Notes under the pieces: generated by a model
Seen by the model: only the letters and a program-made list of their open reading frames with translations
Databases searched by the model: none
Told to the model about the DNA's origin: nothing
Assembly: GCF_000325665.1 (NCBI RefSeq)
Contig: NC_019908.1
Location: 2,418,001 to 2,482,000 of the forward strand
DNA from: Brachyspira pilosicoli P43/6/78
Lineage (GTDB): Bacteria; Spirochaetota; Brachyspiria; Brachyspirales; Brachyspiraceae
Direction: 5' to 3'
Length of the DNA: 64,000 nt
Position numbers and translations under genes: made by a program
Shown here: one piece after another, positions 49,645 to 53,850 of the stretch
Layout: each line of letters starts with the position of its first letter
Position numbering within the stretch: the stretch's first letter is position 1

Positions 49645-50643
49645 ATGACAAAAGAAAAGTTTGGAGAAAACGGATTTGTATATACATTAGAAAACAAGAA
49701 CGGCTTAAAATTAAAACTAGGAGATGTTGGAGCTTCTATAACAGGAATATTTTTTAAAAATAAAAAAGGAGAGAGTATTGAAGTAGCTTTTGGTTCTGAT
49801 GATGTTAGCTTTTACAGTGCCAAGGCAAAAAATGGTCATATGGGTGCTACTGTTGGAAGAGTGGCTGGTAAAACTTTGAACTCTAGTTTTAAAATAGGAG
49901 ATAAAGAATATAAATTAAATCCAAACAAAGCACCTCATCATACACATGGCGGAGTAGATGGTCTTTCTTATGTGTTTTTTACTTCAAAACAAATTGCTGA
50001 TAACAAAATAGAGTTTCATTATTTATCAAAAGACGGCGAAGAAGGATACCCTGGTAATTTAGATTTAACTGTTACATATACACTTACAGAAAACAACGAA
50101 ATTATAATTGATTATAAAGCAACAACTGATAAACCAACTCCAGTAAACATAATGAATCATTCTTATTTTAATTTGAATGGAAAGGGTAAAATTAATAGTC
50201 ATAAAATATCAATAGATGCTAATTATTATTTACCTGAAAATGAAAATGGAGACAGCTCCGGAGAGATTTTTAAAGTTGATAACACTCCTTATGATTTTAG
50301 AAACATGAAAGAGATTGACACTATAATAAAATCTAAAGGCGGATGCGATAACTGTTTTCTATTTGATGATAATGATATAAAAAAATCTAGAGTAAAAGTT
50401 GTTTCAGAAGAGAGTTTAATATCTTTAGAAGTGTTTACAGACATGCCTTCAGTTTTACTATATACTGCTAATTCTCTAAATAATTTACAAGTGAGAGGAC
50501 AAGTATTAAATAAACATGAGGCTTTTTGTTTGGAAACACAATATTTTACTTTGGCACTAAACTATAATCATTTTCCAAGTATAATACTTTATCCAGACAG
50601 GGAGTTTAAGCATAGAACCATTTATAAGTTTGCTACTTTGTAA
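49645..50643 (+). CDS. galM: Galactose mutarotase (aldose 1-epimerase)
   Basis: A 332-residue GalM-type enzyme that interconverts alpha and beta aldose anomers. Motifs: GATVGRVAGK, catalytic His in APHHTHGG and NIMNHSYFNLNG, and catalytic Glu in EAFCLETQYF near the C-terminus. ATG 49645 is used because TAGGAG is 8-9 nt upstream; the longer reading from 49573 has no ribosome site. Cytosolic. No galactose operon genes follow. Confidence 0.9.
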   Translation: MTKEKFGENGFVYTLENKNGLKLKLGDVGASITGIFFKNKKGESIEVAFGSDDVSFYSAKAKNGHMGATVGRVAGKTLNSSFKIGDKEYKLNPNKAPHHTHGGVDGLSYVFFTSKQIADNKIEFHYLSKDGEEGYPGNLDLTVTYTLTENNEIIIDYKATTDKPTPVNIMNHSYFNLNGKGKINSHKISIDANYYLPENENGDSSGEIFKVDNTPYDFRNMKEIDTIIKSKGGCDNCFLFDDNDIKKSRVKVVSEESLISLEVFTDMPSVLLYTANSLNNLQVRGQVLNKHEAFCLETQYFTLALNYNHFPSIILYPDREFKHRTIYKFATL

Positions 50644-50699
50644 TGGGTTTGGTTAAAAATTAAATTAGTAAATATTTAAGTTTTATATAAGATAATACC

Positions 50700-50900
50700 G
50701 TATGTTTTTGGCTATACTTGATAGAAATGCAGTTCTTTTGCTTCTTTGGGTCACCAAAAGAAGTAGGGGGTTGGGGACTAGTCCCCAAAAAATAAAAACT
50801 AATTTTTTGTAAAAAATTATTGTTTTTTTCCGCCTTACACGGTGTGGACTTCGTCAAAGTTTTCGCCCTTCGGGCACGCTTCGCAAAAAGTGCAAGTATT
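50700..50900 (-). repeat. GC-rich mosaic hairpin repeat, copy D (two partial blocks)
   Basis: 50700-50790 has TTTTTGGCTATACTT, GCAGTTCTTTTG, hairpin CTTCTTTGG/CCAAAAGAAG, then the perfect palindrome GGGGACTAGTCCCC. 50830-50900 has the second block: CCGCCTTACACGGTGTGGAC, TTCGTCAAA, then GCCCTTCGGGCACGCTTCGC. Each block matches pieces of copies B, C and E. Confidence 0.75.
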
Positions 50901-50984
50901 TAAGTTATTTATCTACGTTTAGCGAAAGTGCAAATATTTCAGTTTTATTATATATAATAAACATATATGTAAAATAATATTATA

Positions 50985-51097
50985 TATTTTTGGCTATAAT
51001 TCATAAAAATGCAGTTCTTTTGGTTCTTTTATACCAATAAAAGAACTAGGGGTGCGTACCCTAATGGCACGCTTCGCAGGGGGGCTAGCCCCCGAGA
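50985..51097 (-). repeat. GC-rich mosaic hairpin repeat, copy E
   Basis: TTTTTGGCTATAATT, GCAGTTCTTTTG, the perfect hairpin GTTCTTTTAT-ACCA-ATAAAAGAAC, then GGGGTGCGTACCCTAATG, GCACGCTTCGCAGG and the palindromic GGGGGGCTAGCCCCC. The gap 50644-51120 between galM and the transporter gene is made up of copies D and E plus plain AT-rich DNA. Confidence 0.75.
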
Positions 51098-51120
51098 ATA
51101 AAAAAACATAAAATTATTTT

Positions 51121-51630
51121 TTATTCTCTGTTAAAAATAATAGTAAATATTCCTATTATGCTACCCGTTATTAATGATATTATTAACACAGGAAGTATTA
51201 AAAATTTTATATCTGGTAAATTAAAAAGATATTGAGAAAGTATTGCCTGTGATAAATTACTTACTAATGCTCCAGCAATACTTACACCCAAAAGCGAAAA
51301 AATGTTTCTAAAATTTCTCATTAACTTCATTACTATAACAGACATAATCCCCCCAGTTATTCCAAGATAAAATGGAGGAGTGAGAATATATGCAAATACT
51401 ATAGCAACCGATATGTTTTTTATAGCTATCATAAGAAGAAGCTCTTTGAAATTAAATGAATCTAAAACCATTAATATAATAATAAAAGAAAATCCTATCC
51501 TAAAATATGGTATAGGCCTCGGAAACATATTCTCTATTGCCGCAATAAATGAAGATAAAAAAGCAAAAAATATTATATCATAAACTCTTCTTTTTCCGGT
51601 ATGTGTTTTAATTTCTTCAAAAAGTGTCAT
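51121..51630 (-). CDS. Gx transporter family membrane protein (EetB-like)
   Basis: A 169-residue polytopic protein of the Gx transporter / heptaprenyl diphosphate synthase component I family: MFPRPIPYFRIGFSFIIILMVLD, YILTPPFYLGITGGIMSVIVM, and GALVSNLSQAILSQYLF. Proteins of this family occur next to NusG-domain-II proteins, including the EetB/EetA pair of the Gram-positive extracellular electron transfer system. Here too the NusG-II gene is the immediate upstream neighbour. Role here is unknown; a transport function for quinone or flavin precursors is only inferred. Confidence 0.75.
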   Translation of the reverse strand: MTLFEEIKTHTGKRRVYDIIFFAFLSSFIAAIENMFPRPIPYFRIGFSFIIILMVLDSFNFKELLLMIAIKNISVAIVFAYILTPPFYLGITGGIMSVIVMKLMRNFRNIFSLLGVSIAGALVSNLSQAILSQYLFNLPDIKFLILPVLIISLITGSIIGIFTIIFNRE

Positions 51631-51656
51631 ATATTAAAAACCTTTATTTATAACAT

Positions 51657-52034
51657 TTATTGTACAACAGAATCTATTGTTATATCGTTTTCAGTATTTT
51701 TTTCAAATCTTATTAAAACCCCATTTGGCATGCATATTATAGGGGCATTTTTTAATTCTCCTGCTTTTATGCAAAGCTTATCCCGGCATGGAGAATATTC
51801 AAATTTTACTTTTTTGTCTTTTATAATAATAGTAGTCTCACCAATAAGACCTTCTATTTTTATTTCTCTGTCTGTATTTAAATCATACCTTAAAGATTTT
51901 GACGGAGTATCTATTATAATTTTATTTCCTTTATTTTCCATTAAGTTCTTGGCATAATAAATAATAGATATTACTATAATTAAAATAATAATAATATCTC
52001 CGAACCTAATATTTTTTATTATTGATTTGTCCAT
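51657..52034 (-). CDS. NusG domain II-containing membrane protein (EetA-like)
   Basis: A 125-residue protein: one N-terminal membrane segment (IRFGDIIIILIIVISIIYYA) and a NusG-II domain with SPCRDKLCIKAGELKNAPIICMPNGVLI, which carries the typical three cysteines. The domain faces outward from the inner membrane in homologues. It overlaps the YbbR gene by 16 bp and precedes the Gx transporter gene, so the three are translationally linked. Confidence 0.78.
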   Translation of the reverse strand: MDKSIIKNIRFGDIIIILIIVISIIYYAKNLMENKGNKIIIDTPSKSLRYDLNTDREIKIEGLIGETTIIIKDKKVKFEYSPCRDKLCIKAGELKNAPIICMPNGVLIRFEKNTENDITIDSVVQ

Positions 52035-52987
52035 ATCTTTTCTACTTCTATATTGAAAAATGAAGGCTCTATATATGATAATTTGGCATAATCTGGAATA
52101 TTTGCTTCTATTGATATATTAGAGTATATACCTTCATTTGTTATATTTATTAAATTTAATGAAAGGAGTATATCTTCTTTTTTTAAGTTTTCTATTAAGT
52201 TTTTATTCATTTCTAATACAATCTTTTTTACAATTAAAGGTTCATTATATTTTATATTAAATCTGCTATTTAAATTATTAATATTTAATTCTATATTTTC
52301 AAATGTTACTATTTCTATATCTTTATCAAAAATTATACTAGCATCTACTCTAGAAGTATCAGATTTAACATTTGGCGGTATGTTTAAACTAAGCTTAGTA
52401 TTATAATCTAAATATTTATCATCAAGGTCTATAGTTCTTGTATATAATTTATCTATTTGAGATATTAAGGTTTTAGGTCCAGATATTATAGTATTTGAAG
52501 GATTAATAATAATATTTTCAATTTCAAGTCCTAATGATGCTTTTCCTACAGTTTGCACTTCTATAGGAACGGTTTTGTATGCTAATTGGTCTAACACTAC
52601 AGGTATTTTATTTGGATTTATACTTATATTAAGTGATGAATAATCGGCATCATTTTCTAAATATATTTTATACATATTGCTTCCAATTTGTGCATTAGTT
52701 AAATCTATATATGCAGAAAAATCTCTTGGAAGTTCATATATATTATCTTTAAATCCTTTTACACTAACTGTTATATTTTCTTTAATGTTATTAGCAATTA
52801 AAAGTTTTGCTGGAAGGTTTTTTATATTTAATTTTGTAGTATATTCTTTATTGTATTCCTGCTGATATCTCACATATAAAAAGAGCATAAAAGACATAGT
52901 TAAACATAAAGCTTTAATCCAAAATCTATTTGTTATATAGGATAACAATTTTTTATGTTTAAATTTTTTTATTATAATATCTTTCAT
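52019..52987 (-). CDS. YbbR-domain protein (CdaR-like)
   Basis: A 322-residue protein with one N-terminal membrane helix (FWIKALCLTMSFMLFLYVRY) and three YbbR-like beta-rich repeats (NLPAKLLIANNIKENITVSVKG; KTVPIEVQTVGKAS; FENIELNINNLNS). CdaR-type YbbR proteins sit with the diadenylate cyclase CdaA and modulate it. The gene starts one base after cdaA on the same strand. No glmM follows, unlike in Firmicutes. Confidence 0.85.
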   Translation of the reverse strand: MKDIIIKKFKHKKLLSYITNRFWIKALCLTMSFMLFLYVRYQQEYNKEYTTKLNIKNLPAKLLIANNIKENITVSVKGFKDNIYELPRDFSAYIDLTNAQIGSNMYKIYLENDADYSSLNISINPNKIPVVLDQLAYKTVPIEVQTVGKASLGLEIENIIINPSNTIISGPKTLISQIDKLYTRTIDLDDKYLDYNTKLSLNIPPNVKSDTSRVDASIIFDKDIEIVTFENIELNINNLNSRFNIKYNEPLIVKKIVLEMNKNLIENLKKEDILLSLNLINITNEGIYSNISIEANIPDYAKLSYIEPSFFNIEVEKIWTNQ

Positions 52988-52988
52988 T

Positions 52989-53774
52989 TTAATCTACTTT
53001 TACCTCTAAAAGCTCTCCAAGTCTTTTATATAATTCATCTCTGCTTAAATTATATTCCAATATTCCGCCATGAACAATAGAAACGCATTGAGTCTCTTCT
53101 GATACCACCACTACAACAGCATCAGTCTGTTCAGATATACCAAGTGCCGCCCTATGCCTAGTGCCTAATCTTCTATTTTTTATTTGAGGCTCTGTTTCTG
53201 TGAGCGGTAAATATGCACTTGCAGCAGCTATTCTGTTTTCCATTATAATTGCAGCACCATCGTGTATTGGGTTATTTTTAAAAAATATAGATTCTAATAA
53301 TTCTATAGATATGTCGGCATTTAGTCTAACAGCCTTGTCTACTAAAGAATGCAGAGATATATTTCTCTGAAAGACTATCAAAGCACCATAACCTTTATAA
53401 GACAAATTAAAAGTTGCACTCATAATTTTTTGTATCTGGTCTTCATTGTATCCGAATGATTTTTTAAATAACGCCCTTCCGCCTAATATTCTTAGACCAT
53501 GTTTTATTTCCGCCTGAAAGAGTACTACTATTGCAATAAGACCTACTTGGAAAAACTTATCGAATAACCATGAGAGGGTAGTGAGGCCGAAGATTTTAGC
53601 TATTAATGTGATAAAGAAAAGTATTATAAAACCTAGGGCTATGCTGTATGCTCTAGTATTATACATAAGCATGTAAAAAATGTAAAATAATATTGCTACG
53701 AGTATTATATCAAGACTATAAAAGAGATAACGCCAATTTGAAGTTGATATAAAATTATTGATGTTATACAGCAT
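52989..53774 (-). CDS. cdaA: Diadenylate cyclase CdaA (c-di-AMP synthase)
   Basis: A 261-residue protein: three N-terminal membrane helices (about 1-90) and a DAC domain. The catalytic motifs are complete: HDGAAIIMENRIAAASAYLP (DGA) and GTRHRAALGISEQTDAV (RHR). It makes the second messenger c-di-AMP from two ATP at the inner membrane. It is first of a four-gene run: cdaA, YbbR, NusG-II, Gx transporter. The start lies 76 bp from the divergent beta-barrel protein gene. Confidence 0.92.
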   Translation of the reverse strand: MLYNINNFISTSNWRYLFYSLDIILVAILFYIFYMLMYNTRAYSIALGFIILFFITLIAKIFGLTTLSWLFDKFFQVGLIAIVVLFQAEIKHGLRILGGRALFKKSFGYNEDQIQKIMSATFNLSYKGYGALIVFQRNISLHSLVDKAVRLNADISIELLESIFFKNNPIHDGAAIIMENRIAAASAYLPLTETEPQIKNRRLGTRHRAALGISEQTDAVVVVVSEETQCVSIVHGGILEYNLSRDELYKRLGELLEVKVD

Positions 53775-53850
53775 TTACTTATTATATCATATATCTGTAT
53801 ATTTGCAAATAATAAGAAATATTATAATATTAAAAAACGAGGTGTTTTTA

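Follow-up and report, generated by a model that had tools for sequence, protein, structure and literature searches.

In the Brachyspiraceae, the genes for a predicted c-di-AMP synthase and its membrane partner are directly followed on the same strand by two genes of the eetA and eetB kind. We propose that this four-gene unit combines a c-di-AMP pair with a flavin-handling pair serving ApbE and the Rnf complex, and that its members are likely to share expression, an explanation to which we assign even chances of being right. c-di-AMP has been studied mostly for its control of osmolytes and the cell wall; the proposal, if true, would furnish a conserved genetic tie of c-di-AMP and flavin delivery to the Rnf energy pump, pointing to an energy or redox link. 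Among the papers searched on c-di-AMP in Brachyspira and on c-di-AMP together with flavinylation, none was found to describe the arrangement, which is apparently a hitherto undescribed, new combination of known parts.

Genes and junctions of the cdaA locus

The window, a 64,000-nucleotide stretch of Brachyspira pilosicoli P43/6/78, belongs to a genome assembled as a single contig of 2.56 Mb. The unit occupies the minus strand from 53774 to 51121 in the order cdaA, ybbR (cdaR), the NusG_II gene (eetA-like) and the PF07456 gene (eetB-like):

52989..53774, minus strand: cdaA, predicted membrane diadenylate cyclase with CdaA_N and DAC domains, 261 aa (TIGR00159, PF02457, PF19293)
52019..52987, minus strand: ybbR/cdaR-like, N-terminal membrane helix and YbbR domains, 322 aa (PF07949)
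51657..52034, minus strand: eetA-like, one membrane helix and a NusG_II domain, 125 aa (PF07009, AlphaFold model, structure matches)
51121..51630, minus strand: eetB-like, PF07456 protein with a predicted ECF S-component (RibU-type) fold, 169 aa (PF07456, AlphaFold model, fold matches)
53781..53809, minus strand: possible but weak cdaA promoter, TTTGCA - 17 - TATAAT with a TG extension (consensus scan)

The first-pass annotation had reported this linkage at 51121-53774, and Pfam, NCBIfam and fold comparison agree that it is real and correctly placed. The junctions are tight, with a 1 bp gap between cdaA and ybbR, a 16 bp overlap between ybbR and the NusG_II gene, and a 26 bp gap between the latter and the PF07456 gene, while the flanking genes on both sides lie on the opposite strand. 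The candidate promoter ends just 7 bp before the cdaA ATG; the consensus scan returned 38 matches versus 30.8 +/- 5.6 in shuffled sequences and gives no evidence of function, and as both promoter and terminator counts are near the shuffled level, neither is counted as evidence here. Some 480 bp with no evident gene lie 3′ of the block, the first gene beyond the PF07456 gene being a convergent aldose epimerase gene. This intergenic stretch (50640-51120) contains a 79-nt unit in two imperfect copies (80%) with GC-rich pieces such as CCCTTCGGGCACGCTTCGCA; a similar stretch is also found behind rnfG (L041 9208-9501), and it looks like a Brachyspira interspersed repeat.

The cdaA product matches TIGR00159 above the cut-off (E=1.5e-63) as well as the DAC (PF02457, 9.4e-39) and CdaA_N (PF19293, 3e-10) domains, and the DGA and GTRHR motifs are readable in its translation. 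These family signatures predict a CdaA diadenylate cyclase that synthesizes c-di-AMP. The adjoining gene codes for a protein with two stretches matching PF07949 (E=2.1e-10), as expected of YbbR, which in our proposal would serve CdaA as a membrane-anchored, outward-facing partner.

The absence of glmM was given weight in the first-pass annotation, and the gene directly downstream of ybbR is indeed not glmM: the PF07009 and PF07456 genes are found there instead. Thus, the locus shares with the Firmicute cdaA-cdaR-glmM operon the direct succession of cdaA and cdaR/ybbR but differs in having the eetA/eetB pair in the glmM position. The expectation of glmM does not hold for spirochaetes, however, and we dropped it, as acpS is the usual next gene after ybbR in ten other spirochaete DAC loci (acpS-follower loci L141, L143, L144, L146 and L148-L150; the N-terminal AcpS signature is visible in seven of the ten and one call is confirmed by Pfam). 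The Borrelia genes cdaA, ybbR and acpS are linked in transcription (PMC8316131), and Leptospira likewise lacks glmM (PMC12974146). Hence, the missing glmM is nothing special; the distinctive feature is the flavin pair in the acpS position. The cdaA-ybbR core is thus common to the Borrelia-type operon, where it is co-transcribed with the next gene (PMC8316131), and to the Brachyspiraceae, where eetA/eetB hold the place of acpS. In one Brachyspiraceae metagenome-assembled genome of the genus g3, ybbR codes for just 142 aa, under half of what is usual, with the four-gene order intact (L035 1185-1613).

Conservation of the block

We collected the coordinates of PF07009, PF02457, PF07456 and PF02424 across 80 spirochaete genomes and computed the distances between them. 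In all 17 Brachyspiraceae that have both, spanning three genera, at most 5 kb separates the DAC gene from the PF07456 gene on the same strand, as against 0 of 60 other Spirochaetota. Consequently, the linkage is not the property of one strain, and the conservation of gene order anticipated across spirochaetes is borne out for the whole family Brachyspiraceae but fails outside it. A profile HMM search of 16 further Brachyspiraceae loci recovered the same gene order each time with gaps of at most 33 bp, and all nine Brachyspiraceae loci in a separate collection, which partly covers the same genomes, have the four genes (among them B. pilosicoli, B. alvinipulli, B. innocens and B. catarrhinii). 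A single genome (G088) is without the pair; its contig ends 36 bases beyond ybbR, which explains the absence and led us to reject gene loss. Over the 17 loci the neighbours belong to nine unrelated families upstream and ten downstream with the order within the block unchanged; this persistence amid changing surroundings indicates a maintained unit rather than a one-strain accident. Within the genus Brachyspira, purifying selection acts on each of the four genes, most strongly on cdaA (dN/dS 0.02-0.11 against seven Brachyspira) and least on ybbR; the larger dS values are rough owing to high synonymous divergence.

In a phylogenetic tree, the Brachyspiraceae copies of the pair form one clade with 100% support across the three genera, leaving separate gains within the family unsupported. 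The nearest outside relative is an uncultured metagenome-assembled genome (L124), in which the pair follows metG- and ahcY-like genes; neither DAC nor ApbE was detected near that pair.

The tree bears on a possible, if somewhat doubtful, alternative, namely that the pair landed once behind cdaA-ybbR, came to depend on its promoter and could no longer be separated without loss of expression, with no tie between c-di-AMP and flavin export. A single clade means that a single event would suffice. Moreover, outside the Brachyspiraceae the pair never lies close to DAC, and acpS, also without an obvious c-di-AMP tie, sits in the same position in other spirochaetes and, in Borrelia, shares a transcript with cdaA (PMC8316131). 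What it accommodates less readily is that the four genes have stayed together in three genera despite many changes of neighbours, somewhat beyond what inertia would predict, although the gene overlap explains part of this. Under our preferred explanation of shared expression, the family ancestor would have inserted the pair after cdaA-ybbR, at the site held by acpS in most spirochaetes, with the block retained ever since, so that the flavin supply of Rnf would likely rise and fall with the c-di-AMP synthase. The arrangement thereby suggests that the c-di-AMP signal may be coordinated with the delivery of flavin to an electron-transport pump; against this, compact operons can hold unrelated functions.

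The EetA-like and EetB-like proteins

Family matches and predicted folds corroborate the first annotation of the two final genes as eetA- and eetB-like. The NusG_II protein, the only copy in the genome, matches PF07009 (E=2.1e-19), and its nearest named counterpart in the scan, from Brachyspira pilosicoli, is 95% identical. Its AlphaFold model (pLDDT 84.7) displays one helix and a small beta domain, with structural matches to NusG domain II and DUF1312 at Z of 11.5-12.7. The model thus has the architecture expected of EetA/NusG_II (DUF1312), in which a single membrane helix precedes a NusG domain II fold. Its three cysteines, C83, C88 and C101, in the pattern C-x4-C-x12-C-x-P-N, are near-invariant, being kept in 41/42, 42/42 and 42/42 relatives of a set seeded by a Pfam search; the invariance seen in a further alignment (A6) is biased because its sequences were gathered with a cysteine-containing pattern. 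These cysteines should lie on the outer face.

The PF07456 protein is likewise the only copy in the genome (E=6.2e-24, 85.1 bits versus a cut-off of 30). Its AlphaFold model is an all-helical membrane protein (pLDDT 89.8) whose best fold matches are the RibU structures 5kc0 (Z 14.8 over 156 residues, rmsd 3.0) and 3p5n (Z 14.2); next come the S-components for folate, thiamine and biotin, and the first 21 rows are all ECF-type S-components. Foldseek gave an E-value of only 1.3e-2 but a probability of 1.00. As modeled, the protein is one with a RibU-like ECF-S fold. This bears on the Pfam title of PF07456, 'Heptaprenyl diphosphate synthase component I', which would make the protein a prenyl diphosphate synthase subunit and assign the pair to lipid or quinone synthesis, much as a Lactiplantibacillus paper groups EetB/DmkB with quinone synthesis (PMC9888254). 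With an all-helical membrane model that matches ECF S-components, RibU first, and a Listeria EetB that binds FAD (PMC9973259), we consider such a role exceedingly improbable and reject it on the basis of the fold.

The two families occur in identical genomes: all 78 with NusG_II have PF07456, and PF07456 is found in none of the 19 without NusG_II. As this exact co-occurrence holds even where the genes are unlinked (20 of 61 non-Brachyspiraceae), it supports a joint function of the pair, although in Listeria the deletion of eetA alone gives no EET phenotype (PMC9973259). EetB is required there for flavinylation by an ApbE enzyme (PMC9973259). The Brachyspira pair shares with that of Listeria monocytogenes, which exports FAD for ApbE-type flavinylation (PMC9973259), a PF07456-family EetB, an adjoining eetA-like gene and the RibU-like ECF-S fold. 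It differs in adjoining cdaA-cdaR outside any EET locus, in a genome without a detected ECF-T and with Rnf, rather than PplA, as the likely recipient. By analogy, the two Brachyspira proteins would together handle flavin, with EetB moving FAD across to the outer side of the inner membrane.

The predicted topology of the pair also invites a more intimate connection, in which the c-di-AMP module itself senses or controls the flavin or redox state, for example through contact between the outward-facing YbbR and NusG_II domains or between CdaA and EetB in the membrane. The family-wide linkage and tight junctions would fit this, the YbbR and NusG_II proteins each carry a single membrane helix and a domain that should lie beyond the inner membrane, and the three near-invariant cysteines could respond to redox state. 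Nevertheless, the rate of evolution is higher in ybbR and nusG_II than in cdaA, and Rfam at the gathering threshold has no match in the window, the apbE locus or the rnf loci, leaving these without a c-di-AMP or FMN riboswitch. The sole sub-threshold Rfam match, to manA-II (E 0.44), was taken as chance, and riboswitch control was rejected. Accordingly, we regard direct signalling as unlikely, and as the least likely of the three readings that also include regulatory shared transcription and the relic of one rearrangement.

ApbE, Rnf and the ECF-T partner

The genome codes for one ApbE, about 0.4 Mb from the four-gene locus, and one FMN_bind protein, RnfG, which carries an SGAT motif, the type known for flavinylation sites. 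Rnf is complete with all six subunits in two clusters, rnfCDG and rnfEAB, RnfB being recognized by sequence only. The clusters are about 40 kb apart, with rnfCDG (L041 6255-9227) situated behind plsX/fabH-like genes and rnfEAB at L065 1548-3616. Such a repertoire speaks against a Listeria-type locus for flavin-based extracellular electron transfer under c-di-AMP control; the first-pass annotation had connected the pair with electron-transfer loci of this sort and proposed a possible link of c-di-AMP to flavin/quinone or redox transport. The Listeria locus has the same eetA and eetB families (PMC9973259), but with RnfG as the sole FMN_bind protein there is no PplA-like electron carrier. Neither a PplA-type FMN_bind protein nor apbE nor ECF-T is found at the locus; on the FMN_bind count we reject this reading, which is highly unlikely.

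Elsewhere, eetB genes are often associated with Rnf and apbE genes (PMC9973259), and each of the six Bacillota loci fetched reads apbE, eetA, eetB, with rnfC and rnfD on the same stretch in four (L123, L125, L127 and L128). The pair adjoins apbE in 13 of 56 other spirochaetes, and the sister family within the same taxonomic order (G159) has eetA, then eetB fused to an ECF-T domain, then apbE. This fusion (L032 5883-6977) combines PF07456 and PF02361 with apbE directly after it, and similarly long PF07456 proteins are seen in other spirochaetes (L021, L027, L051). In the Brachyspiraceae, neither apbE nor rnf was found near the pair. Thus, the clostridial apbE-eetA-eetB-rnf clusters (PMC9973259; L125, L127) share with Brachyspira the pair itself and the existence of ApbE and Rnf partners in the genome, whereas in the Brachyspiraceae these partners are unlinked and rnf is split in two. 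FMN_bind proteins are present in 77 of 80 genomes, mostly with the pair, versus 13 of 19 spirochaetes without it; the co-occurrence is weak as proof of function and was set aside as such, and the latter count implies that the pair is not obligatory for flavinylation. From this genomic context, the simplest and more likely reading is that the pair provides ApbE with FAD for the flavinylation of Rnf, in which case the single ApbE would attach FMN to RnfG, and probably to RnfD too, of the Rnf redox pump.

A search for ECF-T (PF02361) in the genome of the window returned no match even at E up to 10, nor did a profile of the EetB-fused T domains, which does recover the G159 fusion. More generally, PF02361 above the cut-off is absent from 13 of 23 Brachyspiraceae tested. 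With no ECF-T found, the Listeria mechanism cannot be transferred unchanged: Brachyspira EetB may work without the ECF-T subunit needed in Listeria, or with a very divergent T subunit. It therefore offers a natural case for asking whether an ECF-S protein moves FAD alone or with EetA. One could go further and view a lone EetA/EetB flavin exporter lacking ECF-T as joined with the c-di-AMP synthase complex in one regulated membrane module, in which c-di-AMP synthesis responds to or sets Rnf flavinylation, a notion that we consider improbable. The Brachyspiraceae ECF-T examples fetched (L151-L153) sit with their own S-component and one or two ATPases. In one Brachyspira (L153 719-7494), such a transporter with its own S-component directly precedes ribD-, ribE- and ribBA-like genes and is possibly a riboflavin importer.
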